Shown here piece after piece: positions 49,937 to 64,000 of a stretch of DNA of 64,000 nt (within the stretch, counting starts at the first letter, position 1; each line of letters starts with the position of its first letter). Source of the stretch: Sulfitobacter albidus. Lineage in GTDB: Bacteria > Pseudomonadota > Alphaproteobacteria > Rhodobacterales > Rhodobacteraceae. A program made the position numbers and the translations under genes. Location: positions 3,220,501-3,284,500 of the forward strand of contig NZ_CP073581.1 in the NCBI RefSeq assembly GCF_018200035.1, read 5' to 3'. The notes under the pieces were generated by a model, which worked only from the letters and a program-made list of their open reading frames with translations, did not search any database and had not been told where the DNA came from.

Positions 49937-51682
49937 GCTTTTCCATCTTGCCGCCGGGGTGCGTGACCGCGCCGAGGTACGTGGGCCCGACAAGCTGGGC
50001 GTATTTCCACAGCGCGCCGGAGGCATAGATCGTCTCGCGCGGGCCTTCCCATGCTTTTTTGCGTGTCGCCAGCTCGTCGTCGGTCAGGTCCACGGAAATC
50101 GTGCCCTTCATGGCGTCGATGGTGATCATGTCGCCGTTTTGCAGCAGGCCGATGGGGCCACCCATCGCGGCCTCCGGCCCGACGTGGCCCACACAAAAGC
50201 CGCGCGTGGCGCCCGAGAAGCGGCCATCGGTGATGAGGGCGACCTTTTTGCCCATGCCCTGCCCCGATAGCGCCGCCGTCGTCGCCAGCATTTCGCGCAT
50301 ACCCGGACCGCCGCGCGGCCCTTCGTTGCGGATCACGAAGACGTCGCCTTCGGAGTAGGTGCGGTTTTGCACGGCTTCGAAGGCGTCCTGTTCGCATTCG
50401 AACACCAGCGCGGGGCCGGTAAACAGGATGTCCTCCTCGGCCATGCCGGCGATTTTCACGATGGCGCCTTCGGGGGCGAGGTTACCCTTGAGGCCCACGA
50501 CGCCGCCGGTGGTGGAGATCGGGTTGGAGATCGCGTGGATCACCTTGCCGTCCGCCTCGCGGGTGACCTTATCAAGCACCTCGCCCATGCTCTCGCCCGT
50601 GGCGGTCATGCAGTCGAGGTGGATGAGGCCCGCCTTGCGCAGCTCGTTCATCACGACAGGCACGCCACCCGCCTCGTAGAGATCTTTGGCCACATAGGCG
50701 CCGCCGGGCTTCATATCGACGAAATGCGGCGTGTCGCGGAAGATCTCGCAGACGTCATCGAGGAAGAAGTCGATGCCACATTCGTGGGCCATGGCGGGCA
50801 GGTGCAGGCCCGCGTTGGTCGAGCCGCCGGTGCAGGCGACGATGCGCGCGGCGTTCTCGAACGCTTCGCGGGTGCAGATGTCGCGGGCGCGGATGTTTTT
50901 CTCGATCAGGTGCATGACGGCGGCGCCCGACGCGCGGCCGTATGCGTCGCGGTCCTTGTAGGGGCGGGCATGCCCGAGGAGTTGGGCAGTGCGAGGCCGA
51001 TCGCCTCTGACACGCAGGCCATGGTGTTGGCGGTGAACTGGCCGCCGCAGGCCCCCGCCGACGGGCAGGCGATGCGTTCGAGAATCTCAAGCTCGGCCTC
51101 GGTCATGGTGCCGGATTGGTAGTTGCCGACGGCCTCGAACATGTCCTGAACGGTCAGATCACGCTCGGCAAAGCTTTGCGGGATGTCCGCGCCCTTGGGC
51201 GCCTTGCCCGGCAGGATCGAGCCGCCGTAAAGGAATACCGACGGCACGTTGAGCCGCAGCATCGCCATCATCATGCCGGGCAGGGATTTGTCGCAGCCGG
51301 CCAGACCGACGATGGCGTCGTAGCAGTGACCGCGCATGGTCAGCTCGACCGTGTCGGCGATGGCCTCGCGCGAGGCGAGCGAAGACCGCATGCCCTCGTG
51401 GCCCATGGCGATGCCGTCGGTCACGGTGATGGTGGTGAATTCGCGCGGTGTGCCCTGCTCTTCCTTGACGCCGACCTTGACGGCCTGCGCCTGACGCGAG
51501 AGCGCGATGTTGCACGGCGCGGCTTCGTTCCAGCAGGTTGCGACGCCGACGAGGGGTTGGTGGATCTCTTCCTCGGTCATGCCCATCGCGTAGTAATACG
51601 ACCGGTGCGGCGCGCGCGCGGGGCCTTCGGTCACGTGACGGCTGGGCAGTTTGGATTTGTCGAAACGCTGGTTGCTGGACAT
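49917..51682 (-). CDS. ilvD: Dihydroxy-acid dehydratase, frameshift mid-gene
   Basis: About 588 residues once corrected. An Fe-S enzyme of branched-chain amino acid synthesis that dehydrates 2,3-dihydroxy acids. Motifs: [47 protein letters not shown], then, after the break, [19 protein letters not shown] and [20 protein letters not shown]. The frame breaks after SSGMPAP; one extra base in the run 50961-50964 restores [10 protein letters not shown] and continuity. The ATG is at 51682. The end includes [19 protein letters not shown], a normal C-terminus. Confidence 0.93.
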
Positions 51683-51883: not shown

Positions 51884-52950
51884 TTGAGTTTCGTTCGTAA
51901 CGCGTGGTATGTCGCCGGATGGTCGCGTGATTTTGGCGAGGCGTTGAGCGCGCTGGAGATCACCGCGCAGCGGCTGGTGATGTTCCGCGACAGCACAGGC
52001 GCGGTGAAGGCGCTGGAGGATCGCTGCCCGCACCGGTTGCTGCCGCTGTCCAGGGGCAAGCGTATCGGGGACACGATCCAATGCGGCTATCACGGGATGA
52101 CGTTTAACGGGGAAGGCACCTGCGTGCGCGTCCCCGGCCAGGACAACACCCCGCGCAGCGCCTATGTGCGGGCGTTCCCTGTGGTGGAGCGGCACGGGAT
52201 CGTCTGGATCTGGATGGGTGACGCGGCGCTGGCGGACGAGAGCGCGATATTCGATCTTCCGGAGTTCTCGGACCCCGATTGGCACGCGCATCACGGCGGG
52301 CATCTGGAGATCACGGCGCATTATCTGAACGTCGCCGAGAACCTTGTGGACCCGGCGCACGTCAGCTTTGTGCATCCCACCACGCTGGGCAATGCAGCGT
52401 CAGAGGATGTGCCGGTGCATGTGTCGACCTCCGGCAAGGTGATCCGCGCGTGGCGCTGGATAAGGGATGCGCCGCCCATCGGGTTTTTCCAGCAGTTCGG
52501 CGGGTTCGACGGCAATGTGGACCGCTGGCACTACTATGACCTGCATCTGCCCTCGACGGCGGTGATTGATTTCGGGTCGGTGGACACGGCGCTCGCGTGT
52601 CCCGAGGACGAACGCGACCGCGGCGTGCGCATCTTTGCCATCCACTTCGTCACGCCGGTGAACGAAAACCAGACCGTCGATCACTGGATGCACCTGCGTA
52701 ATACCGCGCAGGGGATGACGCGGCCTCGGGCAAGATGGACGCGATGTTCGAGGTTGCGTTTGGCGAGGATAAGGCGATTCTGGAGGCGGTACACGAAGAG
52801 GAACAACGCCCGCAGACCCGCCGCCCCATCCGCATCGCCATCGACAAGGGACCCACCGTTTACCGCAAGCGCATCCGCGAATTGGTCGAAGCGGAAGCCA
52901 TCGAAGATCTGGGGGAGCCGGTCTCGCCGGTATTCGTCCAGCACGATTGA
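51884..52950 (+). CDS. Rieske-type aromatic-ring hydroxylating/demethylating oxygenase (VanA-like), frameshifted
   Basis: About 355 residues once corrected. It starts MSFVRNAWYVAGWSRDFGEA from a TTG with AGGAGG at 51873-51878; longer forms from the ATG at 51816 lack homology. The Rieske cluster ligands are in DRCPHRLLPLSRGKRIGD and QCGYHGMTF (C-x-H, C-x2-H). The mononuclear Fe site lies in NVAENLVDPAHVSFVHPTT. The frame breaks after HLRNTAQG; one base missing from the G run at 52711-52714 explains it, and it resumes GKMDAMFEVAFGEDKAILEA to 52950. It would need a separate reductase, not encoded here. The substrate is unknown, presumably a ring compound imported by the following ABC system. Confidence 0.82.
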
Positions 52951-52981
52951 TAACAATGACCAGCCAACAGAGAGAGATCCC

Positions 52982-54187
52982 ATGAAACGCAAGACATTCC
53001 TGAAAGGGTTGATCGCCGCCACGGCCTTTGCCGCGCTGCCGCTGACGGCCGCCGCCGAAGACACGATCAAGATTGGCGAAATCAACCATTACAAACGCCT
53101 CGCGGCCTTTGCCGGCCCCTACAAGCTGGGCATCGAGCTGGCCATCGAAGAGGTCAATGAGGCAGGCGGTGTGCTGGGCAAACCGCTTGAGTTCATCTTT
53201 CGCGACGATCAGGGCGAGCCCGGCGAGGCGATCAAGATCGCCGAAGAGCTGATGACGCGTGAGGGTGCCGTAATGCTGACGGGCACGATCCTGTCGAACG
53301 TGGGCCTCGCGATCTCAAGCTTCGCGGGCGAGAAGGGCTATGTCTACCTCGCGTCGGAGCCTTTGGCGGACAGCATCGTCTGGGGAGCGGGCAATCCCTA
53401 TACCTTCCGTCTGCGCGCCTCGACTTACATGCAGGCCGCGATGCTGGCGGAGGCGGCGGCCAAGACCGACGCCGTGACCTACGCCACGATTGCCCCGAAC
53501 TATGCCTACGGCAAGGATGCGGTCGCGGCGTTCAAGGAGAACCTGACGCGCCTCAAGCCCGAGGTGGAATTCGTGGCCGAGCAGTGGCCGGGCGTGTTCA
53601 AGATCGACGCAGGCGCGGAGGTGCAGGCGCTGGAGCGGGCCAAGCCCGACGCGATCTACAACGTGACGTTCGGGCCTGATCTCGCGAAATTCGTGCGCGA
53701 GGGCGGTGATCGGGGGCTTTTCGACGGGCGCCAGATCTTTGGCCTTTTGTCGGGCGAGCCGGAGTATCTGGACCCGCTGGGCGATGAAGCGCCCGAAGGC
53801 TGGATCGTGACGGGCTATCCCTGGTACGATCTGACGGATGGTCCCGAGGGCGCGTTCGTGAAGGCGTATCAGGCGGCCTATAACGACTATCCGCGCGTCG
53901 GCTCGCTGGTCGGCTACATGACGGTGCAATCCATCGTCGCGGCGCTGGAGCGTGCCGGATCGACCGAAAGCGAAGCGATCCGCGCGGCCTTTGAGGGGCT
54001 GGATGTGAGCACACCGATGGGTGAGATCACCTTCCGCGAGATCGACAACCAATCGACTGCCGGCGCCTACGTCGGCACGACCGCGCTGCGCGATGGCGGC
54101 GGCATCATGGTCGATTGGGAGTACAAGGACGGCGCGAACTATCTGCCGTCGGACGAAGAAGTCAAAAAGCTCCGCCCGTCGGAGTGA
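52982..54187 (+). CDS. ABC transporter substrate-binding protein, LIV (branched-chain amino acid) type
   Basis: 401 residues with a Sec signal (FLKGLIAATAFAALPLTAAA). The type I periplasmic binding fold shows in KLGIELAIEEVNEAGGVLGK, FIFRDDQGEPGEAIKIAEEL, and TYATIAPNYAYGKDAVAAFK. LIV-type proteins bind amino acids but also many aromatic acids and amides, so the ligand is probably the compound degraded by the neighbouring enzymes. It is the second gene of the plus-strand operon, 31 bases after the oxygenase gene. Confidence 0.88.
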   Translation: MKRKTFLKGLIAATAFAALPLTAAAEDTIKIGEINHYKRLAAFAGPYKLGIELAIEEVNEAGGVLGKPLEFIFRDDQGEPGEAIKIAEELMTREGAVMLTGTILSNVGLAISSFAGEKGYVYLASEPLADSIVWGAGNPYTFRLRASTYMQAAMLAEAAAKTDAVTYATIAPNYAYGKDAVAAFKENLTRLKPEVEFVAEQWPGVFKIDAGAEVQALERAKPDAIYNVTFGPDLAKFVREGGDRGLFDGRQIFGLLSGEPEYLDPLGDEAPEGWIVTGYPWYDLTDGPEGAFVKAYQAAYNDYPRVGSLVGYMTVQSIVAALERAGSTESEAIRAAFEGLDVSTPMGEITFREIDNQSTAGAYVGTTALRDGGGIMVDWEYKDGANYLPSDEEVKKLRPSE

Positions 54188-54194
54188 TTTGTCG

Positions 54195-54220
54195 CGGCGG
54201 CGGGGATCGCTCCGCCGCCG
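54195..54220 (+). terminator. Hairpin between the binding-protein and permease genes (likely attenuator)
   Basis: A 9-bp all G/C stem CGGCGGCGG / CCGCCGCCG with an 8-base loop, followed by the pyrimidine-rich GTTTCTTCT, eight bases after the binding-protein stop. Such hairpins commonly keep binding-protein mRNA more abundant than permease mRNA, by partial termination or 3'-end protection. Confidence 0.6.
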
Positions 54221-54261
54221 GTTTCTTCTCAGTGCACACCCCCTGAATTAGGACATTCCTG

Positions 54262-56120
54262 ATGGAATTTTTCGTTGCCCAAATCCTGACGGGACTGGCA
54301 AACGCCTCGTCGTTGTTTCTGGTCGCCTGTGGCCTGTCGCTGATTTTTGGCGTCACGCGGATCGTGAATTTTGCACACGGGAGCCTCTACATGCTGGGCG
54401 CCTACGTGGGCTATTCGCTGATGCAGGTGCTGCCGGGGCATTTTGGGTTCTGGGGGTCGATCCTGCTGGCGGCGGTGGCCGTGGGCCTGATCGGGATGCT
54501 GATCGAGATGCTGGTGCTGCGCCCGGTCTACCGCGCGCCCGAGCTGTTCCAGCTGGTCGCGACCTTTGGCGTGATCCTTGTCATTCAGGATCTGGCGCTG
54601 ATCATCTGGGGCCGGAGGATCTGCTGGGGCCGCGCGCGCCGGGGCTGCGCGGCGTGTTCCGCATCATGGGTGAGCCGATCCCGAAATACGACATCGTGCT
54701 GTTGATCATCACGCCGTTCATCGCCGCCGCCCTGTGGTATCTGATCACCCAGACACGGGTGGGCATTCTGGTGCGTGCCGCCACGCAGGACCGCGAGATG
54801 GTCGGCGCGCTGGGCGTCAATCAGGCGTGGCTGTTTACCGGCGTGTTTGCGCTGGGCTCGGCGCTGGCGGGTCTGGGCGGTGCGTTGCAGCTGCCCAAGG
54901 GCGGTGCCGATCTGCTGATGGATTTCAACATTCTGACGCCGGTGTTCGTTGTCGTCGTCATCGGCGGCATGGGATCGCTGCCGGGCGCCTATGTGGCGGC
55001 GATCATCATTTCGGTGCTCAACGTATTCGGCGTGACCTACCTGCCGCAATCGACGCTGGTGCTGATGTTCATCGTGATGATCGTGGTGCTGATGATCCGG
55101 CCCTACGGCCTGTTCGGCCGGGAGGAAGTCGCGGGGGAGCACGGGCAGGTGGGCGAGCCTGAGCGCCCGATCAAGCCTGCGTCGAACCGGGTGCGCGCGG
55201 TTGTCATCGCGGGGCTGGTGCTGCTGGCATTGCTGCCGCTTTATGGCAGTAGCTTTTCGATGGTGCTGGCGACGGACGTGATGATCTTCTGCCTGTTCGC
55301 GGCCTCGCTGCATTTCCTGCTGGGGCTTGGCGGGATGGTGAGCTTCGGGCACGCGGCCTATTACGGCGGCGGCGCCTATGTGGCGGCCCTGCTGGTCACG
55401 CACGCGGGATCGTCGATGGAGGTGGCGTTTCTGCTCGCGCCGCTGGGGGCCGGTCTGGCCGCACTGGCGATCGGCTGGGTCTGTCTGCGGCTGACGGGGG
55501 TGTATTTTGCGATGCTCACGCTCGCCTTTGCGCAGCTGATCTGGAGCCTTGTGTTCCAGTGGGGTGACGTGACGGGGGGCGACGACGGGCTGGTCAACAT
55601 CTGGCCTGCGGAATGGCTCAAGGATACGTCGGTCTATTTCTATTTCACGCTGATCTTTGCCGTGTCGGGCATCGTAATGCTGCGGCACGTGGCGCATTCG
55701 CCGTTCGGCTACGCCCTGCGCGCGGCGCGCGACAGCAAGCGGCAGGCGGAGGCGACGGGCATCGACACCCGGCGCGTGCAGCTGATCGCCTTTGGCTTTG
55801 CCGGGTTGATGGGCGGGCTGGCGGGCGCGCTGTTTGTGTTCTCGAAGGGCAGCGTGTTTCCCAACGAGCTGGAGATCGCGCGCAGTTTCGACGCGTTGAT
55901 CGTGGTCTTTCTTGGTGGGGTGAAAACGCTGGCAGGGGGTGTTGTGGGCGCAGGCTTTTTCAAGGGGATCGAAGAGGTGTTGTTGCGCTTTGAATACTGG
56001 CGGCTGGTAATGGGTCTGCTGATCATCTTTGTGGTGATCGCCGCACCGGAAGGGATCGTGGGATCCCTGCGCAAGGGGGCCGAGCGCATCGGCCTGCTGA
56101 AAACAGGAGATCAGTCATGA
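54262..56120 (+). CDS. Fused LivH-LivM ABC permease, frameshifted in the LivH half
   Basis: About 619 residues once corrected. The LivH half begins MEFFVAQILTGLANASSLFL and includes GVTRIVNFAHGSLYMLGAYV; it breaks after ALIIWG, where one missing base near 54608-54613 explains the shift, and resumes PEDLLGPRAPGLRGVFRIMG. It ends with LMIRPYGLFGREEVAG and runs, without a stop, through a short hydrophilic linker into a LivM half (LPLYGSSFSMVLATDVMIFC, GLGGMVSFGHAAYYGGGAYV, GVYFAMLTLAFAQLIWSLVF). Normally these are two proteins. Inner membrane, about 16-18 helices in total. Confidence 0.82.
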
Positions 56121-56893
56121 GCGCCGTTCTGGAAACACGCGGGCTGACCCGCCATTTTGGCGCCATCGTGGCGGTCAATGACGTGTCGTTCCAGCTGAAA
56201 AAGGGCGAGCTTTTGGCGCTGATCGGCCCCAATGGTGCGGGCAAGAGCACGTGTTTCAACATGCTGATGGGGCAGTTGCCGCCCACCTCTGGCGATGTGC
56301 TGCTGGAAGGGCAGAGCATCAAGGGGCTGAAACCGCGCGAGGTCTGGCGGCGCGGGGTCGGCCGCACGTTTCAGATCACGGCGACCTATTCCTCGATGAC
56401 GGTGGTGGAGAACGTGCAGATGGCGCTGATGTCGCATCACCGCGAGATCTACCGCATCCGCCCCTACGCGCATCAGCAACACCGCGCGGCGGCGATTGCG
56501 CTGCTGGACACGGTGGGCATGGCCGCGCAGGCGGACCGCCACTGCGCGGTGCTGGCCTACGGCGATCTCAAACGGATGGAGCTGGCGATTGCGCTGGCGC
56601 ATGATCCGACGCTGTTGCTGATGGACGAGCCGACGGCAGGCATGGCCCCGAAAGAGCGCGTCGCGCTGATGCAGCTGACGGCGGATATCGTGCGCGACCG
56701 GGGCGTGAGCGTTCTGTTCACCGAGCATGACATGGATGTCGTCTTTGCCCATTCGCACCGGATCATGGTGCTAAACCGCGGGGAGCTGATTGCCGAGGGC
56801 AACGCGGAGGAGATCCGCGCCAACCCGATGGTGCAGGAGGTCTATCTGGGCGGCGGCAGCGTCTTTGGTGAGGGGGAGACGGCCCATGCTTGA
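56117..56893 (+). CDS. livG: ABC transporter ATP-binding protein, LivG type
   Basis: 258 residues. Walker A IGPNGAGKSTCFNML, the LivG-type GRTFQITATYSSMTVVENVQ, a signature loop reading LAYGDLKRMELAIALAHDP, and Walker B TLLLMDEPTAGMAP with a conserved switch His in FTEHDMD. The signature is LAYGD rather than LSGGQ, which is usual for LivG. The ATG overlaps the permease stop by four bases. It energises import together with LivF. Confidence 0.92.
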   Translation: MSAVLETRGLTRHFGAIVAVNDVSFQLKKGELLALIGPNGAGKSTCFNMLMGQLPPTSGDVLLEGQSIKGLKPREVWRRGVGRTFQITATYSSMTVVENVQMALMSHHREIYRIRPYAHQQHRAAAIALLDTVGMAAQADRHCAVLAYGDLKRMELAIALAHDPTLLLMDEPTAGMAPKERVALMQLTADIVRDRGVSVLFTEHDMDVVFAHSHRIMVLNRGELIAEGNAEEIRANPMVQEVYLGGGSVFGEGETAHA

Positions 56894-57587
56894 GGTCAGC
56901 GGGATCAACACGCTTTACGGCAAGGCGCATGTGCTGCGCGATCTGGCGTTTCCGGTGGCGCGGGGGCAGGTGGTGGCGCTGCTGGGGCGCAACGGGGCCG
57001 GCAAATCCACCACGATGAAATCCATCATGCAGCTGGTGCGCCCGGCCTCGGGCAGCATCACCTTTCAGGGGGAGCAGCTGATCGGTCTTCCCTCGCACAA
57101 GGTGGCCAAGATGGGGCTGGGATACGTGCCCGAGGACCGGCGCGTGTTCACGGATCTGACGGTGATGGAAAACCTGATCGTGGGCCAGCAGCCCCCGCGC
57201 GAGGGCGCCGTGACATGGACGCAGGACATGCTGTTTGATCTGTTCCCCAACCTCGCCGAGCGGCGCGGCAACCGGGGCAAGGCCCTGTCGGGGGGCGAGC
57301 AGCAAATGCTGACGATTGCACGCACGCTGATGGGCAACCCGCTGTTCGTGCTGCTCGATGAGCCGAGCGAGGGGGTCGCTCCGGTGATCGTGGAGCAGAT
57401 GGCGCGGGTGATCAAACAGCTGAAATCCGAGGGGCTGACGGTATTGCTCTCTGAGCAGAACCTGCATTTTGCGCAGGCCGTGGCCGACCGTGCCGTGATT
57501 ATCGAAAGTGGCGAGGCGATGTTTGAAGGCACGCTTGCCGAATTGAACGCCCAGCCGGAGGTGCGCGATGCGTATCTTGCGGCCTGA
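56886..57587 (+). CDS. livF: ABC transporter ATP-binding protein, LivF type
   Basis: 233 residues. MLEVSGINTLYGKAHVLRDL starts the domain. Walker A LLGRNGAGKSTTMKSIM, the LivF-type YVPEDRRVFTDLTVMENL, signature ALSGGEQQMLTIARTLM, and Walker B FVLLDEPSEGVAP are intact. It overlaps livG by eight bases; upstream in-frame codons within livG are not used. The next gene, the enamidase-like one, starts 21 bases later in the same operon. Confidence 0.92.
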   Translation: MLEVSGINTLYGKAHVLRDLAFPVARGQVVALLGRNGAGKSTTMKSIMQLVRPASGSITFQGEQLIGLPSHKVAKMGLGYVPEDRRVFTDLTVMENLIVGQQPPREGAVTWTQDMLFDLFPNLAERRGNRGKALSGGEQQMLTIARTLMGNPLFVLLDEPSEGVAPVIVEQMARVIKQLKSEGLTVLLSEQNLHFAQAVADRAVIIESGEAMFEGTLAELNAQPEVRDAYLAA

Positions 57588-57608
57588 TATCAAAGAGGAC
57601 TGAACACC

Positions 57609-58771
57609 ATGAGCGACAAACTGGTCATCAAGAATATCGGCATGATCCTGTCGGGCAAATTCGAGGAGCCGATTTTCGACGGCAATTGCCTGATTGCGGT
57701 GGAGGGCAAGATCACCGAATGGGGCTATGAGAAGGATCTCGATTGCGAGGGGGCCGCGACGGTGGTGGATGCCAAGGGCGTGACGCTCGCCCCCGGTCTG
57801 ATCGACAGCCACGTGCATCCTGTCGTGGGCGATTACACCCCACGCCAGCAACAGCTGCACTGGATCGACAGCACGCTGCACGGGGGGTTACCACGCTGAT
57901 CTCCGCCGGGGAGGTGCATATGCCGGGGCGGCCCAAGGATATCGTCGGGCTCAAGGCGATGGCGATTGCCTCGCAGCGTTGGTACGAGAATTTCCGCCCC
58001 TCTGGCGTGAAGGTCCACGCCGGCGCCCCGGTGATCGAGACGGGGATGGAAGAGCAGGATTTCAAGGATCTGGCCGACGCGGGCGTGACGCTTTTGGGCG
58101 AGGTCGGGCTAGGCTCGGTCAAGGACGGCAAGACCGCGCAGCAGATGGTCAGCTGGGCGCGCAAATACGGCATCCAGAGCACGATCCACACCGGCGGCCC
58201 GTCGATCCCCGGATCGGGGTTGATCGACGCGGATATGGTGATGGAGACGGGCACGGACGTGATCGGCCACATCAACGGCGGGCATACGGCACTGCCCGAC
58301 GATCAGATCGTCTGTTTGTGCGAGGGGTGTTCTTCGGCGTTTGAGATTGTGCACAACGGCAACGAGCGCGCGGCGATCCTGTGTGTGAATACCGCGCGCG
58401 AGCTGGGCAAGCTGGATCAGGTCATTCTGGGCACCGACGGGCCTGCGGGATCGGGGGTGCAACCCTTGGGGATCTTGCGGATGATCGCGATGGTCGCCGC
58501 CTTTGGCAATGTGAAGGCCGAGCAGGCGTTCTGCTTTGGCAACGGCAACACCGCACGGCAGCGCAATCTGGATACCGGGTTGATCGAAGCGGGGATGGCG
58601 GCGGATTTTGTGCTGCTGGATCAGGCGCAGCACAGCCCCGGCAAGACCATGCTGGAATCGGTCGCGCAGGGGAACCTGCCCGGCGTCGGCATGACCATCA
58701 TCGACGGCAGGGTGACCAGCACCCGCAGCCGCAACACGCCGCCCGCGATGCGGTTTCCCGAAGTCGTCTAG
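57609..58771 (+). CDS. Enamidase-like amidohydrolase, frameshifted
   Basis: About 387 residues once corrected. It resembles the clostridial enamidase that hydrolyses 1,4,5,6-tetrahydro-6-oxonicotinate to 2-formylglutarate. Shared features: MSDKLVIKNIGMILSGKFEE, metal ligands in APGLIDSHVHPVVGDYTPRQ, ISAGEVHMPGRPKDIVGLKA, a carboxy-Glu region LGEVGLGSVKD, IHTGGPSIPGS, VIGHINGGHTALPD, LGTDGPAGSGVQPLGILRM, and the C-terminal SRNTPPAMRFPEVV, very close to the ending I recall for that enzyme. The frame breaks after TLHGG; one base missing from the G run 57882-57887 explains it. Confidence 0.82.
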
Positions 58772-59199
58772 GTAATCTTGCGCAGGAGCGCCACGAGCGT
58801 TGCGCGTTCCTGCGCGGTGAGCGGATCGAGGGTTTCATCGCTGATGCTGTGGCCGATGGCGGTCAGCTCTGCGATGAGGCTTTGGCCCGCTTGGGTCAGC
58901 GAGATCGAGGTGCGGCGCTTGTCGCCGGGATCCTGACGGGTTTGCAGCAGGCCCTTGCGTTTGAGCCGGTCAACGACGCCCTTGATCGTTGCCACGTCCA
59001 TTGCCGCCAGACGGCCCAGATGATTTTGCGAGATCTCGCCCTCTTCCGAGACGCGGATGAGGGTGGTGAATTGTGTGGGCGTCAGCCCGTCACGCATCAG
59101 CCGTTGAAAGATGATCCCGTGGCGCTGGCTGGCCAGCCGCAGCAGGAACCCGATCTGATCGTCGAGCCGGTAGTCGCCGTGTGGCCGCGTCCCGTCCAT
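58768..59199 (-). CDS. MarR family transcriptional regulator
   Basis: 143 residues. The winged helix shows as LTPTQFTTLIRVSEEGEISQ, NHLGRLAAMDVATIKGVVDR (recognition helix region) and GLLQTRQDPGDKRRTSISLT (wing, with the typical DxRR). Such proteins often repress aromatic catabolism genes and release DNA on binding the substrate. It is the last gene of the minus-strand operon, and its stop overlaps the end of the convergent enamidase gene by four bases. A likely target is the site at 51804-51815. Confidence 0.88.
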   Translation of the reverse strand: MDGTRPHGDYRLDDQIGFLLRLASQRHGIIFQRLMRDGLTPTQFTTLIRVSEEGEISQNHLGRLAAMDVATIKGVVDRLKRKGLLQTRQDPGDKRRTSISLTQAGQSLIAELTAIGHSISDETLDPLTAQERATLVALLRKIT

Positions 59200-59783
59200 C
59201 AGCGCAGACCGTCCGTGCCCTGCGCCTCTTCGTGGGTCAGACCGCCGACGCGCGGCAGGGGGCGGCCGCTGTCGGTGACGGCGACGGCGACCATGATCTC
59301 GGACGCGCGGGGGGCATCGTTGAGCTGGACTTCGATCCCGTCGAAATGGCTGCGCACATAGGCCGCATCCTTATGGCCCAGCGGCACGTCGAGCACCTGA
59401 CCCGGGCTGCCCATCTTTTTCGAGGACGCGACGAGGGCCGCGCCCTTTTCGACCGCCGCGCGCAGGGGGGCGCCCAGTTTGGGGTGCAGGATGGCGGCGG
59501 CGTGCTCAAGCTCGCCGCGCTCGCCCACCATCGCGGATTTGCCGTAGCTTTGGGCCTGCGCGGGCGTGATCCCCAGCGCCTGCACGCAGCGCTCGCCCAG
59601 CAGCGCGCCCAGCTCGGCGCCGATGTCCATGAGGTCCGTGAGGTCTTCGGCGTAGCTGCCCGCGAAGGGATTGGCGATGACGGCCACGGCCACGGCCTTG
59701 CGCGTGGGCGGCGTGACGGGGCGGCCCATCTCGATATGGGTTTCCTCGACCGTGACGGCGATTTTGCGGATCTGTGCTTTCAT
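59199..59783 (-). CDS. DUF1185 / AA_synth family protein, copy 1
   Basis: 194 residues of the amino-acid-synthesis family PF06684, whose structures resemble the Bacillus chorismate mutase fold; no reaction is established as far as I know. Conserved segments: AVAVIANPFAGSYAEDLTDL, QSYGKSAMVGERGELEHAAA, VDVPLGHKDAAYVRSHFDGI-type block (DVPLGHKDAAYVRSHFDG), and LNDAPRASEIMVAVAVTDSG. It overlaps marR (one base) and copy 2 (four bases). The paralogues probably form a hetero-oligomer or catalyse related steps. Confidence 0.85.
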   Translation of the reverse strand: MKAQIRKIAVTVEETHIEMGRPVTPPTRKAVAVAVIANPFAGSYAEDLTDLMDIGAELGALLGERCVQALGITPAQAQSYGKSAMVGERGELEHAAAILHPKLGAPLRAAVEKGAALVASSKKMGSPGQVLDVPLGHKDAAYVRSHFDGIEVQLNDAPRASEIMVAVAVTDSGRPLPRVGGLTHEEAQGTDGLR

Positions 59784-60361
59784 CTCAGGCCATCCTCGCC
59801 CGTAATGTCGGCGGCGTCCAGACCGCCCGCGCGGTTGTGGATGCGCGCGCCGGTGGTCATCACCAGCACCACGGCCATTTCATCGGCACGCGGCGCGTCG
59901 TTGCAGCCGACCTCCATCGCGTCGAAATGTCCGCGCACGTAAGAAGCATTGATATGCGTGATCGGCACGTCGAGCCGGGCGCCAACGCCGCCGACCTTCT
60001 TGGTCGAGGGCACGATGGCGCGGGCATCGCCCAGCAGCTCGCGCATGGCGTAGCCGCCCGGCGCGTGCCAGAGCGCGCCATGCTCGATCTCCCCGGCCTC
60101 GCCGACGATTGCGCCTTTGCCGTAGCCTTCGATGCGGTCTGCCCCGCCGAGGGCTGTGGCGAGTTTGGTCGCCATCAGCAGGCCCAGCGGTTTGAGATCG
60201 TCCATGAAGGGCTGGATGTCCGCCACATAGGCGCCCGCGTAGGGGTTTTTGATCACGGCCACGATGGCGCCCCGCAGGAGCGGTGCTTCGGGGGCGGGGC
60301 CGTTTTCGTGAAAGACCTCCTCGACGGTGAGGATGGTCTTGCGCAGCTGGGTGTCAGGCAT
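59780..60361 (-). CDS. DUF1185 / AA_synth family protein, copy 2
   Basis: 193 residues, clearly paralogous to the next gene: AIVAVIKNPYAGAYVADIQP, EGYGKGAIVGEAGEIEHGAL, DVPITHINASYVRGHFDAME and CNDAPRADEMAVVLVMTTGA align with the first copy. The start at 60361 (MPDTQLRKTILTVEEVFHEN) overlaps the end of the UPF0280 gene by eight bases; a 38-codon upstream extension is ignored. Role unknown; context implies a step in the same catabolic route. Confidence 0.85.
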   Translation of the reverse strand: MPDTQLRKTILTVEEVFHENGPAPEAPLLRGAIVAVIKNPYAGAYVADIQPFMDDLKPLGLLMATKLATALGGADRIEGYGKGAIVGEAGEIEHGALWHAPGGYAMRELLGDARAIVPSTKKVGGVGARLDVPITHINASYVRGHFDAMEVGCNDAPRADEMAVVLVMTTGARIHNRAGGLDAADITGEDGLR

Positions 60362-61196
60362 GTTCCGGGCTTTCTTGATGAATAAGGGCGCGCGCCCCGA
60401 TGGTGCGGGACTGACCGGCCAGATGCAAGCTGGCGGCGGCGATATGGGGGATGGCGCGCGCGCGGGCGGCGCCATTGGTGAGTGCGCGGTCGATCTCGGC
60501 GGGGGTCAGAGCACCGCAGCCGGTCACGACCGGGCGGGTGCCCAGATCGCTGTCGTCGGTGAGCTGGTTGGCGGGAGTGCGCCGGATCGCCGGGTGGCCC
60601 GGCAGATCGACGGCGTTGGCGATGAGGGTGGCGGCGGCGTCAGCGACGCTTGCGGTGGCGGCCAGCACTGTGACGCTATCGGCGATGCCAAGGCTGTGGC
60701 TGCGCCCGTGCCGCCCGCTGGTGGCGATGCCGCGCACGGGATCGGCGTGGGTGATCCGGATGCGGCCCAGACCCGCGCCGTCGTGGGCGGCCATGGCCAT
60801 GGTGAATTGCGCGTCCGGGGTCAGATGGATCGCGATATCGCCGCCGTTGTTGACGTAGGCGCGGGTGAGGTCGGCGGCGGTGGTCATGGCGGCGAGGATC
60901 TCCTCGGCGACGCTGCCCGCGACGGCGGCCATGGGGGTGACGGGCTCGAAAGGCGCCAGCGGGGCGACGGCGGTTTGCATGCGCCGGGCGATGGCGCCGC
61001 GCGCGCGGGGCGCGGAGGTGGCGGTGCGCAGCAGGGGCAGCTCTGCCATAAGTTCGGTCAGGACGCTGGCAAAGCGCGCCTGTGCCGCCTCAAAAGCGCG
61101 CGCGCGGTCGCCCTCGGCGCCGATAATCAGATCAATCGGGCCGTGGTGCAGGTGCAGGCGTTGGCCGCAGGGCAGGAGGGCCGCCGTCGCCTGCAT
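60354..61196 (-). CDS. UPF0280 (ApbE-like) family protein
   Basis: 280 residues. The family's hallmark HHGPIDLIIGAEGDRARAF lies near the N-terminus, and the middle segment AVAGSVAEEILAAMT with AYVNNGGDIAIHL and GIATSGRHGRSHSLGIADSV resembles ApbE flavin transferases. ApbE proteins attach FMN to target proteins; whether UPF0280 proteins do so is unknown. Its ATG shares one base with the stop of the reductase-like gene upstream, so it may serve a flavoprotein of this pathway. Confidence 0.82.
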   Translation of the reverse strand: MQATAALLPCGQRLHLHHGPIDLIIGAEGDRARAFEAAQARFASVLTELMAELPLLRTATSAPRARGAIARRMQTAVAPLAPFEPVTPMAAVAGSVAEEILAAMTTAADLTRAYVNNGGDIAIHLTPDAQFTMAMAAHDGAGLGRIRITHADPVRGIATSGRHGRSHSLGIADSVTVLAATASVADAAATLIANAVDLPGHPAIRRTPANQLTDDSDLGTRPVVTGCGALTPAEIDRALTNGAARARAIPHIAAASLHLAGQSRTIGARALIHQESPEHA

Positions 61197-62676
61197 CAGC
61201 TTTTTGACCAGCGGTAGTGTTGCGGGTCCATCGGGTCATGCTCCTGCGCGCTGCGGCGCAGTTTGCGGGTCTCGGCGGTGCCCAGATCGGTGACGGCGCG
61301 CACCTCGTCCATGTGGCCGCCCAGCGTGCCGTAGTCGCTGGTGCGCAGGGTGAATTCGATGGGGCCACAAGGGCCGGGGTGGGCACGTAGCCGAAGGAGT
61401 TCGTGGGCATGTCCATCACATCGACCATCACGGTGATGCCGCCACCGGGCCAGACATAGGCCTCGGCCCCGCCGCAGGACACATGGGTCAGGCTATCCTT
61501 GACCGAGCGGGTAAGGCGCACGGGGTTTTCCGTGACACCGGCGCGCAGGCTGCCGCCCGCGCCACCCATGAAGAGGACCGAGCAGACCGAAGGCTCGCAA
61601 TTCTCCGCAATGATATCGGTGGAGCGTTTGAGGGCTGTGGGCATGTCGTGCGGCTGCGGCACCAGATCGGCGTCCAGCTCGTAGTAGGCGAATTGCTCCC
61701 CGGTGGTGGAGACCATCAGCAGGCGCAGCCCCTCCCACGCGATTTTGGGATTGAACGGGCCGAGGATGGTGAGCGGGTCATCCACATCCGTGCCGCCCCA
61801 GCCGGTGCCCGGCTCTGCCACCTGAAAATACCGCCCGGGGGTGGAGCGGCGGCCCTTGATCTTGATCCCCGTGGGCGGCACGTCGAGCTGTTTGCCGGCC
61901 TCGTGTTCGGAGAGCACGCCGGTGATGTGATCGTCCACGACCACCACGTCGTCGGCGTGGCCCATCCATTGTTTCGCGAACATCCCGATCGTGGCGGAGC
62001 CGCAGCCGACGCGCATCAGACGCTCGGGCGCGCCGTTGATGATGGGCGCACGGCCCGCCTGCACGGTGAGGTCGGTGGTGTGCCCTTCCGCGCCGATGGT
62101 CATCGCGACCGGTTCGCGGTTGCACAGTTTCAGCAGGGCGTCACAGGTCACGCGGCCCTCTTTCTTGGTCCCGCCGGTGAGGTGTTCGACCCCGCCGAGC
62201 GACAGCATTTTTGAGCCATACTCGGACGTCATCACATGGCCGATGGGTTCGCCATCGACGCGCACAACATCGCGTTCGTGGCCGATGTGGCGGTCGGTGT
62301 CGATTTTCACCTTCACGCCGCAGTAGGAAAAGATCCCCTCGGTCACGACCGTGACCATATCGACGCCCTCGATTTCCTGGCTGACGATGAAGGGGGCGGG
62401 TTTGTAATCGGGGTAGGTGGTGCCGGCGCCCACGGCGGTGACAAAGGGGCGGTCGCCCTTGACGATATCGCCGTCCCAGTTTTCGGTGCCGCCGTCCTTG
62501 AGGAAGGGGACCATGCGCTGGCCTTCGGCCTCAAGGATCGTGAGCGCGTCGAGGCGCACCAGATCGCCGCCGTGGTTGGCGTAGCGGTCGCAGGCGCCCG
62601 ATTTGCCCTCGGCGATAAAGCACATCACCGGGCAGGCGTCACAGCGGATCTTTTCGGGCTTTGGCATTTCGTTCAT
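61196..62676 (-). CDS. 6-Hydroxynicotinate reductase-like iron-sulfur protein, frameshift near the 3' end
   Basis: About 493 residues once corrected. The N-terminal cysteine cluster KIRCDACPVMCFIAEGKSGA followed by CDRYANHGGDL suggests a [4Fe-4S] cluster. Further blocks: FIVSQEIEGVDMVTVVTEGI, SYCGVKVKIDTDRHIG, GCGSATIGMFAKQWMGHADD, and PGGGITVMVDVMDMP. I associate this with 6-hydroxynicotinate reductase of Eubacterium barkeri, which reduces the pyridone ring. The frame breaks near 61361-61364 (one missing base); the corrected end reads DLGTAETRKLRRSAQEHDPM and stops at 61196. The start overlaps the Mo-hydroxylase stop by four bases. Confidence 0.8.
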
Positions 62677-64000
62677 GAGTGAAGCGCCTTGATTGCGGCG
62701 CGCACGCGGGCCGGGGTTGCGGGCACGTCAGCGATGCGCGCGCCCGTCGCCCGCGCGATGGCGTTGAGCAGCGCGGGGGCGGTGGGGATCAGCACATGCT
62801 CGCCCAGCCCCTTGGCGCCAAAGGGGCCGTGGGCGTCGGGTTCTTCGATGATGAGGGTCTCGATGGGCGGGATGTCTCCGATGGTGGGGATGAGGTAATC
62901 GTGCAGGTTCTCGGTGCGCCCGGGCAGGTATTCCTCCATCAGCGCCATGCCGAGGCCCTGCGCGATGCCGCCGTGCACCTGCCCTTCGACAAGCAGCGGG
63001 TTGATGGCCTGACCTACGTCATGCGCGGCGGTGAACTTCAGCGGAGTAACGGTGCCGAGCGCGGTATCGACCTCGACCACAGCCAGATGGGCGGCGTAGC
63101 CGAATTGCGCGTAGGGGCTGCCCTGACCGTTTTCATCCATGGGCAGGGTTGGCGGATCGTAGGATTCCGTTGCGGTGAAGGCGTAGCCGTCGGCATCCGT
63201 GGGCAGGGGGCGAGGTCCAGCGTTTTGTCGCCTGCTGCATCGGTGGCGATGATGCGCCCGGCGGCCACGCGCAGCGTGGCGTCATCGGCGGCGTTCATGC
63301 GTTTGAGGATCTGCGCGCGCAGGCTTTGCGCGGCGCGCAGGGCGGCGGCACCCGTCACGAAGGTCTGCCGCGAGGCGGAGGTTTTGCCCGCGTCGGGGGT
63401 CACATCCGTATCGGGGCCGATGCGGGCGATATCGCCGACCGCCACGCCAAGCGCCTGGGCAAAGATCTGGCTGATGACGGTGTTCGACCCCTGCCCGATG
63501 TCCATCGCGCCCTGATGCAGCACCAGCGTGCCATCGGCGCGCACGCCGCATTTGATGGTCGAGGGGTTGGGCAGCGAGGTGTTCCCGCAGCCGTACCAGC
63601 CGCCCGCGATGCCCACGCCCCGTTTCAGGGTGTCGTTGGCGGCGTTGAAGGCTTCCGCTGCGGCATTCTCAGTCTGCCACGCGGGGCGCAAGGCCTCAAG
63701 GCAGGCGCGGATGCCGACGCCCTGATCGAACACCTGCCCGCAGACCGTGGGCGTGCCGTTGTCGAGCGCGTTGATGAGGCGGAACTCCAGCGGGTCGATG
63801 CCGAGCTTGTCGGCCAGCACGTCAAAGAGCTGCTCCTGCGCCAGCGCCGATTGCGGCACGCCAAAGCCGCGAAAGGCGCCGGCCGGCGGGTTGTTGGTGT
63901 GCACACCGGTGGAGTTGGCCCGGTAGTCGGCAATGCGGTAGGGGCCGGAGGCATGCACCGGCACGCGGTTAGCCACGGTCGGGCCCCAGCTGGCATACGC
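62673..64000 (-). CDS. Xanthine dehydrogenase family molybdopterin-binding subunit (truncated at window edge, frameshifted)
   Basis: The C-terminal ~443 residues of a molybdenum hydroxylase large subunit; the N-terminal part lies beyond base 64000. Visible: WGPTVANRVPVHASGPYRIA, NNPPAGAFRGFGVPQSALAQ, QGAMDIGQGSNTVISQIFAQ and AHGPFGAKGLGEHVLIPTAP (predicted catalytic Glu in GLGE). One base seems missing from the run at 63206-63210. Such enzymes hydroxylate electron-poor N-heterocycles such as nicotinate with water as oxygen source. The small FeS and FAD subunits would be expected nearby outside the window. Confidence 0.85.

Follow-up and report, generated by a model that had tools for sequence, protein, structure and literature searches.

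A probable aerobic reductive nicotinate cluster in Sulfitobacter albidus with a candidate Rieske oxygenase-importer entry module

INTRODUCTION

Three enzyme types, a molybdenum (Mo) hydroxylase, a 6-hydroxynicotinate reductase (Hnr), and an enamidase, reportedly carry out the first steps of nicotinate fermentation in Eubacterium barkeri, in work attributed to Alhapel (2006), and studies of Azorhizobium from 1992 are said to have placed ring hydrolysis and decarboxylation after the reduction, followed by glutarate and glutaryl-CoA. Passages of PMC3511419 report the reduction of 6-hydroxynicotinate to tetrahydro-oxonicotinate in aerobic Azorhizobium and describe a cluster, conserved in Azorhizobium, Bradyrhizobium, Rhodopseudomonas, and strain SG-6C, that encodes the enzymes of the first three steps along with an ATP-binding cassette (ABC) importer and two conserved proteins of unknown function (AZC_2804-2790 and blr3818-3830; the word "enamidase" is not used in these passages). 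Here, we describe a gene cluster in a window of 64,000 nucleotides, that is, the whole stretch of DNA that was analyzed (bases 3220501-3284500 of the main contig, NZ_CP073581.1, of the 3.86-Mb genome of the alphaproteobacterium Sulfitobacter albidus), in which the three enzyme types stand beside a Rieske oxygenase and a leucine/isoleucine/valine (LIV)-type importer. The core of this cluster is very probably the aerobic reductive nicotinate pathway as in Azorhizobium and Bradyrhizobiaceae, and the Rieske oxygenase probably acts upstream of nicotinate.

A reductive core of this kind is known in aerobes; of interest here are the conserved module of Rieske oxygenase and importer and the modular ring-opening step. 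A Rieske oxygenase with its own importer in a nicotinate cluster was described in none of the papers searched. Marine phytoplankton make nitrogen-ring betaines, the consumers of which are poorly known, and the Rieske-importer module is a candidate for the bacterial conversion of trigonelline to nicotinate.

RESULTS

Gene content of the locus

The locus consists of two convergent gene runs that overlap by 4 bases where they meet (enamidase/MarR). The plus-strand run encodes, in order, the Rieske oxygenase, a LIV-type binding protein, a fused permease, two ATPases, and the enamidase; the minus-strand run, followed from outside the window inward, encodes a flavin adenine dinucleotide (FAD) subunit, a fused [2Fe-2S]/Mo subunit, Hnr, a UPF0280 protein, two DUF1185 proteins, and a MarR-family regulator. 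Because the same arrangement recurs in dozens of loci, a chance arrangement is ruled out. The features, with their supporting matches (expect [E] values unless given in bits) or open reading frames (ORFs), are as follows.

51884..52950, plus strand: Rieske oxygenase alpha subunit, VanA_C type; TTG start, from which homologs align; PF00355 1.7e-18, PF19112 1.1e-30; C-terminal part in another frame
52982..54187, plus strand: LIV-type ABC substrate-binding protein of the Rieske-linked clade; PF13458 2.6e-62; binding-protein tree
54262..56120, plus strand: fused LIV-type permease; ORFs; a single 1860-base permease coding sequence on a Sulfitobacter sp. S190 plasmid
56117..56893, plus strand: ABC ATPase 1; ORF; tblastn synteny
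56886..57587, plus strand: ABC ATPase 2; ORF; tblastn synteny
57609..58771, plus strand: enamidase (amidohydrolase); match to 2vun, E 2.6e-79
58768..59199, minus strand: MarR-family regulator; PF01047 1.2e-11
59199..59783, minus strand: DUF1185/PF06684 protein 1 (AAS1); PF06684 3.6e-71
59780..60361, minus strand: DUF1185/PF06684 protein 2 (AAS2); PF06684 1.1e-69
60354..61196, minus strand: UPF0280 protein, ApbE-like fold; NF003322 345.5 bits, cut-off 290
61196..62676, minus strand: 6-hydroxynicotinate reductase-like protein (Hnr); ORFs, homology, tree
62673..64000, minus strand: Mo hydroxylase, the C-terminal part that lies in the window; PF02738, PF20256, PF01799
L005:1673-4407, contig extension: Mo hydroxylase beyond the window, N-terminal [2Fe-2S] part
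L005:4404-5234, contig extension: FAD subunit, after the Mo hydroxylase outside the window

A preliminary description of this DNA had named these genes and their overlaps, and both the gene assignments (by ORFs, domain profile matches, and coordinates) and the overlaps were confirmed: 1, 4, and 8 bases along MarR/DUF1185/DUF1185/UPF0280, 1 base between UPF0280 and Hnr, and 4 bases between Hnr and the Mo subunit, together with the 4-base convergent end. It had also proposed that extending the contig would reveal the missing iron-sulfur (FeS) and FAD subunits and the genes for processing 2-formylglutarate. The former were found, so that the Mo hydroxylase has its FeS and electron-transfer parts in the form of fused FeS/Mo and FAD subunits. 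The latter were not: by eye, no fermentative second-half genes (2-formylglutarate to propionate and pyruvate) were recognized among the flanking ORFs, no genome-wide search having been made. Beyond the FAD subunit lie what by eye resemble a glucokinase gene and a sugar ABC operon.

The core enzymes group with those of nicotinate-type loci

In the proposed core, the Mo hydroxylase would convert nicotinate to 6-hydroxynicotinate, Hnr would reduce the latter to 1,4,5,6-tetrahydro-6-oxonicotinate, and the enamidase would open the ring to give 2-formylglutarate and ammonia; the remaining carbon would pass through glutarate to acetyl-CoA. Aligned with the solved enamidase 2vun, the window enamidase was identical at 129 of 295 residues (44%; E 2.6e-79) and kept what we take to be the metal-site motifs. 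All 43 family genomes with an enamidase at 75% identity or more also carried Hnr.

For comparison, 60 loci (L numbers are our handles) were picked by hand across the identity range, not at random, from Hnr hits in 32 of 398 and 103 of 295 genomes; the stretches examined were ~13 to 19 kb long, and absence of a gene means absence from the stretch. In a tree of Hnr (61 rows), the window protein fell on the enamidase-bearing side (Shimodaira-Hasegawa-like approximate likelihood ratio test value of 88), which comprised 41 rows (32 labeled Ena, 7 none, and 2 Hyu; for 10 loci the Ena label denotes a genome-level enamidase). The same side holds L105-L111, which judging from genome size and gene content appear to be Bradyrhizobium-like; of these, L105-L107 and L109-L111 come from genomes of one family (f8) of 6.7 to 8.8 Mb. 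Hnr identity to L105-L107 and L109-L111 was 69 to 71%, and that of the enamidase, where present, was 71 to 73%; no enamidase lay within the stretches of L105-L107. L109-L111 have one DUF1185, one UPF0280, and one MarR gene, which fits the content of the published cluster, and because such loci hold them, the DUF1185 and UPF0280 proteins are presumably the two unknown proteins of that cluster. Related Hnr loci also contain genes of nicotinate metabolism, namely, nicotinate phosphoribosyltransferase (L105-L107) or nicotinamidase (L112, L113, L115, L119, and L120).

Hnr is common and sometimes plasmid-borne. It was found in 103 of the 295 sampled family genomes (own genome included) and in 26 plasmid records, and at least 8,000 database proteins resemble it; among the 120 matches listed, the NCBI names were 6-hydroxynicotinate reductase, and several JGI names were hypothetical protein. 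The AlphaFold model of Hnr was only fair (predicted local distance difference test [pLDDT] score of 74), and Foldseek returned no match for it at E <=0.001.

The enamidase relationship and the grouping of Hnr support the earlier proposal that the locus is a single functional unit for a pyridine carboxylate. That proposal was to be abandoned if the reductase and enamidase grouped with families acting on other substrates; at the sequence level they do not, the enamidase resembling 2vun and Hnr resembling the Bradyrhizobium-like loci. The accompanying view that a reductive route in an aerobe was uncharacterized did not hold, as the route was reported for aerobic Azorhizobium and clusters have been published (passages of PMC3511419).

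A Rieske oxygenase and a distinct importer clade accompany Hnr

When the 295 family genomes (own included) were searched for the Rieske oxygenase at E 1e-60 or better, 20 genomes had matches at 65% identity or more, and all others were at 46% or less. Hnr was present in 19 of these 20 genomes versus 103 of 295 overall (Fisher p 9e-9, uncorrected for kinship, as are all Fisher values here), and in 15 of the 20 the two genes lay on one contig within ~17 kb. Of 80 named Rieske loci (the best 80 of 223; several of the contigs are short, and some loci probably share a genome with other sampled loci), most of which are Rhodobacterales by record title, 63 contained Hnr and 70 the binding protein, while UPF0280 and the second DUF1185 gene were each found in 66. 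Plasmid records with a Rieske ortholog at 60% identity or more contained Hnr in 11 of 11 cases, 8 of these being Sulfitobacter plasmids that are mostly much alike.

The binding protein that adjoins the Rieske gene forms its own clade. In a tree of 93 rows (>300 residues, >45% identity; 88 different; the Rieske rows mostly from the Rieske search), 73 of the 75 rows in this clade were Rieske linked, as were just 2 of the 18 rows in the other. Comparison of 73 and 16 rows from the two clades, with L093, L097, L230, and L232 left out as exceptions and L067 left out because its binding protein is cut, revealed 17 near-fixed residue differences. The clade split and these differences suggest that the Rieske-linked importer has a distinct ligand.

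In the Rieske protein, residues C48, H50, C67, and H70 and residues D156, H159, and H164 were invariant in 15 sequences. Its best solved match was the dicamba O-demethylase DdmC (E 3.7e-38); the N-demethylase NdmA was among the 26 solved matches, ranking below SxtT-type and ketosteroid enzymes. Since most Hnr-positive family genomes (all but 19 of 103) do without the Rieske oxygenase, we place it upstream of the core. Together with its importer it would form a module through which a nicotinate precursor enters: the Rieske-linked LIV importer would bring in a modified form of nicotinate, from which the VanA-type oxygenase would strip the modification to yield nicotinate. Most likely, the group removed would be the N-methyl group of trigonelline, set free as formaldehyde. 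By eye, no formaldehyde-handling genes were recognized among the frames around the Rieske gene, no search having been aimed at them. Extra conserved reading frames in this region were set aside as mostly antisense-like by eye.

Other surroundings of the Rieske gene were also seen. At L225:10001-16649, an ortholog without Hnr nearby has neighbors that by eye resemble isomerase, ferredoxin reductase, and TctA-like transporter genes, and at L216, L217, L221, and L229 a shared gene, by eye of the isochorismatase-type hydrolase kind, lies close to the Rieske gene and the usual importer is absent.

The ring-opening enzyme varies between loci

Among the 60 Hnr loci, 21 had the enamidase, 11 had HyuA, 28 had neither, and none had both (p 0.005); the corresponding counts for the 63 Hnr-containing named Rieske loci were 38, 17, 8, and 0 (p 1e-9). 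Thus, within the stretches covered, the enamidase and HyuAB, an ATP-dependent hydantoinase/oxoprolinase pair, stand in for each other. HyuA (mostly with HyuB) and no enamidase was found in the Hnr loci L091, L093, L095, L097, L098, L103, L115, L116, L117, L122, and L123 and also in L240. The two kinds fall mostly on separate sides of the Hnr tree, L116 and L117 being exceptions. A Neorhizobium plasmid carries hnr, hyuA, and hyuB near a gene annotated as nicB, and a nicotinamidase gene is present in three loci from the HyuAB side of the tree; both versions may therefore serve nicotinate.

The HyuA of the S. albidus genome itself, considered as a ring opener, shares no more than 43% identity with the cluster type and is probably not one. 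In Sagittula stellata E-37, the HyuAB version with the Rieske gene is located on a plasmid typed as conjugative (L240; NZ_CP155730.1).

UPF0280, DUF1185, MarR, and electron supply

All 60 Hnr loci held UPF0280, and 59 of them held one or more DUF1185 proteins; every one of the 21 enamidase loci had the first DUF1185 protein. The AlphaFold model of UPF0280 (pLDDT 93.4) matched 2o34 best in Foldseek (5.7e-10) and also matched ApbE, FmnB, and Ftp structures (ApbE 3pnd, E 7.2e-5, template modeling score about 0.4 to 0.5). Residues D186, A188, A189, and T190 were invariant in 21 sequences. Position 167, which we take to be the equivalent of the ApbE catalytic-region His, was variable, so that this His is not conserved in UPF0280. 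Because of the ApbE-like fold, and because E. barkeri Hnr is said to contain a covalently bound flavin, we propose that UPF0280 may attach or mature the Hnr flavin. No conserved ApbE-type Thr motif could be picked out of the Hnr alignment, and a GSAT Thr considered as the attachment motif was dropped, the Thr being Ala or Ser in several rows.

AAS1 was identical to 2qtp at 166 of 191 residues (87%), and we take 2qtp to be SPO0826 of Ruegeria pomeroyi DSS-3. The SPO0826 primer agrees with the beginning of 2qtp; it is given in passages of PMC2954203, which also place branched-chain amino acid transporter genes near SPO0826 and, for the DUF1185 structures published in 2010, suggest a role in amino-acid metabolism only. 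In the cluster, the DUF1185 proteins would act beside or after Hnr, and MarR would sense a pathway intermediate. A ferredoxin-NADP reductase-like gene (122 bits, below the profile cut-off of 390) was linked in 25 of the 80 named loci and is so annotated on three plasmids with Hnr; none was recognized in the window cluster. Where linked in relatives, it would feed electrons to a ferredoxin-type reductase in an aerobe.

Frame breaks and an intact relative

Five cluster genes (those for the Rieske oxygenase, permease, enamidase, Hnr, and Mo subunit) and the neighboring ilvD are each split over two reading frames, with breaks at 50906-50915 (ilvD), 52715 (Rieske), 54610-54665 (permease), 57875-57887 (enamidase, in a G run), 61360 (Hnr), and 63203-63229 (Mo subunit). 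As ilvD, too, is affected, errors in base calling are a more likely cause than gene decay. On the 146-kb plasmid of Sulfitobacter sp. S190, all five genes are annotated as single and full length; the gene order differs there, the enamidase gene standing between the MarR and Rieske genes. On this plasmid (L239; NZ_CP081121.1), the cluster adjoins the bacteriochlorophyll genes ppsR, bchF, and bchB.

DISCUSSION

We lean toward a scheme in which the known reductive core is fed by an entry module for a trigonelline-like precursor. Judged from sequence, trigonelline itself, N-demethylated by the Rieske oxygenase, is a tentative choice of substrate, to which we would give somewhat less than an even chance. 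Removal of its methyl group gives nicotinate directly. Ruegeria pomeroyi DSS-3, the owner of SPO0826, is described in passages of PMC8269262 as growing better with trigonelline than with homarine.

Several observations weigh against this scheme. The known first step of trigonelline breakdown is ring opening by TgnA/TgnB, and trigonelline amounts to 1 to 300 pM in marine particles versus 0.6 to 67 nM for homarine (both from passages of PMC8269262; a 2023 correction lowers the homarine values). The growth of DSS-3 on trigonelline may also proceed by another route. Rieske orthologs occur at L225, L228, and L229 without Hnr, DUF1185, UPF0280, or the importer type nearby; a close enamidase was present in just 9 of the 20 Rieske-positive family genomes and absent from 11; and HyuA stood in place of the enamidase in 17 of the 80 named Rieske loci. 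Neither a VanB-type reductase, in the window cluster, nor a dedicated decarboxylase gene was recognized. For the glutarate branch, the CoA-transferase homolog of the S. albidus genome is 55% identical and lies ~80 kb from the cluster (G000:C1:3368111), with no glutaryl-CoA dehydrogenase seen beside it by eye. A CoA-transferase adjoined the cluster at 85% identity or more in just L068-L070 of the 60 loci and, at 50% or more, in none of the 80 named loci; the L070 protein scored 521.8 bits against NF052585, below its cut-off of 750.

The Rieske substrate could instead be another nicotinate precursor, for example one methylated on the ring or on oxygen, or one whose N-substituent differs from that of trigonelline. 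Methyl groups on O, N, and C are all attacked by relatives of the VanA type (as in the DdmC and NdmA matches), the protein matched a 4beta-methylsterol monooxygenase profile with 92 bits (falling far short of the cut-off, 600), and the distinct importer clade suggests a distinct ligand. However, no recognized neighboring gene points to a specific compound, and we regard such a precursor as unlikely.

Degradation of homarine (N-methylpicolinate) by the cluster is, in our estimate, quite unlikely. The Rieske oxygenase would then give picolinate, the Mo enzyme 6-hydroxypicolinate, Hnr a tetrahydro form, and the enamidase 2-oxoadipate, a route that appears to be chemically feasible. The named Rieske loci are mostly from Rhodobacterales, a largely marine group, which would suit a marine compound. 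Homarine is, moreover, the far commoner of the two in marine particles (passages of PMC8269262). The core enzymes, however, belong with nicotinate-type loci in the Hnr tree, and some relatives have nicotinamidase or nicotinate phosphoribosyltransferase. In addition, a homarine pathway of 2026 is cited as involving Mgd (passages of PMC13390433), and no Mgd gene was recognized by eye in the locus, no search having been aimed at Mgd.

The preliminary description had proposed a hybrid reductive/oxygenase route, in which the Rieske oxygenase would work inside the pathway and oxidize a core intermediate. A HyuAB-type locus in which a single gene run comprises the Rieske, Hnr, UPF0280, and DUF1185 genes would fit such a route, but the oxygenase is dispensable to the core (present in just 19 of the 103 Hnr-positive family genomes) and its presence follows the importer clade, which makes a true hybrid ring route very unlikely. 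What survives of that proposal is the putative joining of an oxygenase step to a reductive route, a route that is not itself new. That the whole core serves a non-nicotinate substrate, so that the names Hnr and enamidase mislead, is highly improbable. In its favor, the Mo/FeS protein is just 38 to 45% and 23 to 25% identical, in separate stretches, to those of L105-L107 and L109-L111; against it, Hnr (69 to 71%) and, where present, the enamidase (71 to 73%) match those same loci, and the enamidase is 44% identical to 2vun.

Returning to the scheme of a reductive core with an entry module, the cluster suggests a function for UPF0280 (flavin transfer to Hnr) and gives a metabolic frame for the DUF1185 proteins. 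A bolder model, doubtful as a whole, would have marine roseobacters and their relatives use a second, demethylating trigonelline route (dedicated LIV importer plus Rieske N-demethylase) leading into the reductive pathway, with UPF0280 as a dedicated Hnr flavin transferase and with the unrelated ring openers enamidase and HyuAB defining interchangeable forms of the same cluster.

Of the described systems, the cluster is most readily set beside that of Azorhizobium caulinodans and Bradyrhizobiaceae (passages of PMC3511419), with which it shares the genes of the first three nicotinate steps, an ABC importer, presumably the two conserved unknown proteins, an aerobic alphaproteobacterial host, and a predicted route by tetrahydro-oxonicotinate to glutarate; it differs in having two DUF1185 copies, an added Rieske oxygenase, and another importer clade. 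It also has a fused [2Fe-2S]/Mo subunit with an FAD subunit, whereas L109-L111 have a separate FeS protein, and the Mo subunit of L111 (L111:4831-8361) carries at its C terminus a part that resembles cytochrome c (41.6 bits to the ccoP profile, below cut-off), unlike the FAD-partnered enzyme of the window. Compared with the fermentation of E. barkeri, second-half genes were not recognized nearby, and an aerobic glutarate end is expected. Like the VanA-type demethylases DdmC and NdmA, the Rieske protein has Rieske and VanA_C domains and shares what is presumably the VanA-type iron motif, NxxDxxHxxxxH; unlike them, it belongs to a separate group of orthologs that goes with Hnr loci, the DdmC match being E 3.7e-38 at best. 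The UPF0280 model similarly fits the ApbE, FmnB, and Ftp folds of ApbE flavin mononucleotide transferases but differs in its variable catalytic-region His. Finally, the TgnA/TgnB pathway (passages of PMC8269262) has the same candidate substrate, trigonelline, the ring of which is opened there by an oxygenase, whereas the S. albidus cluster would first N-demethylate it to nicotinate.

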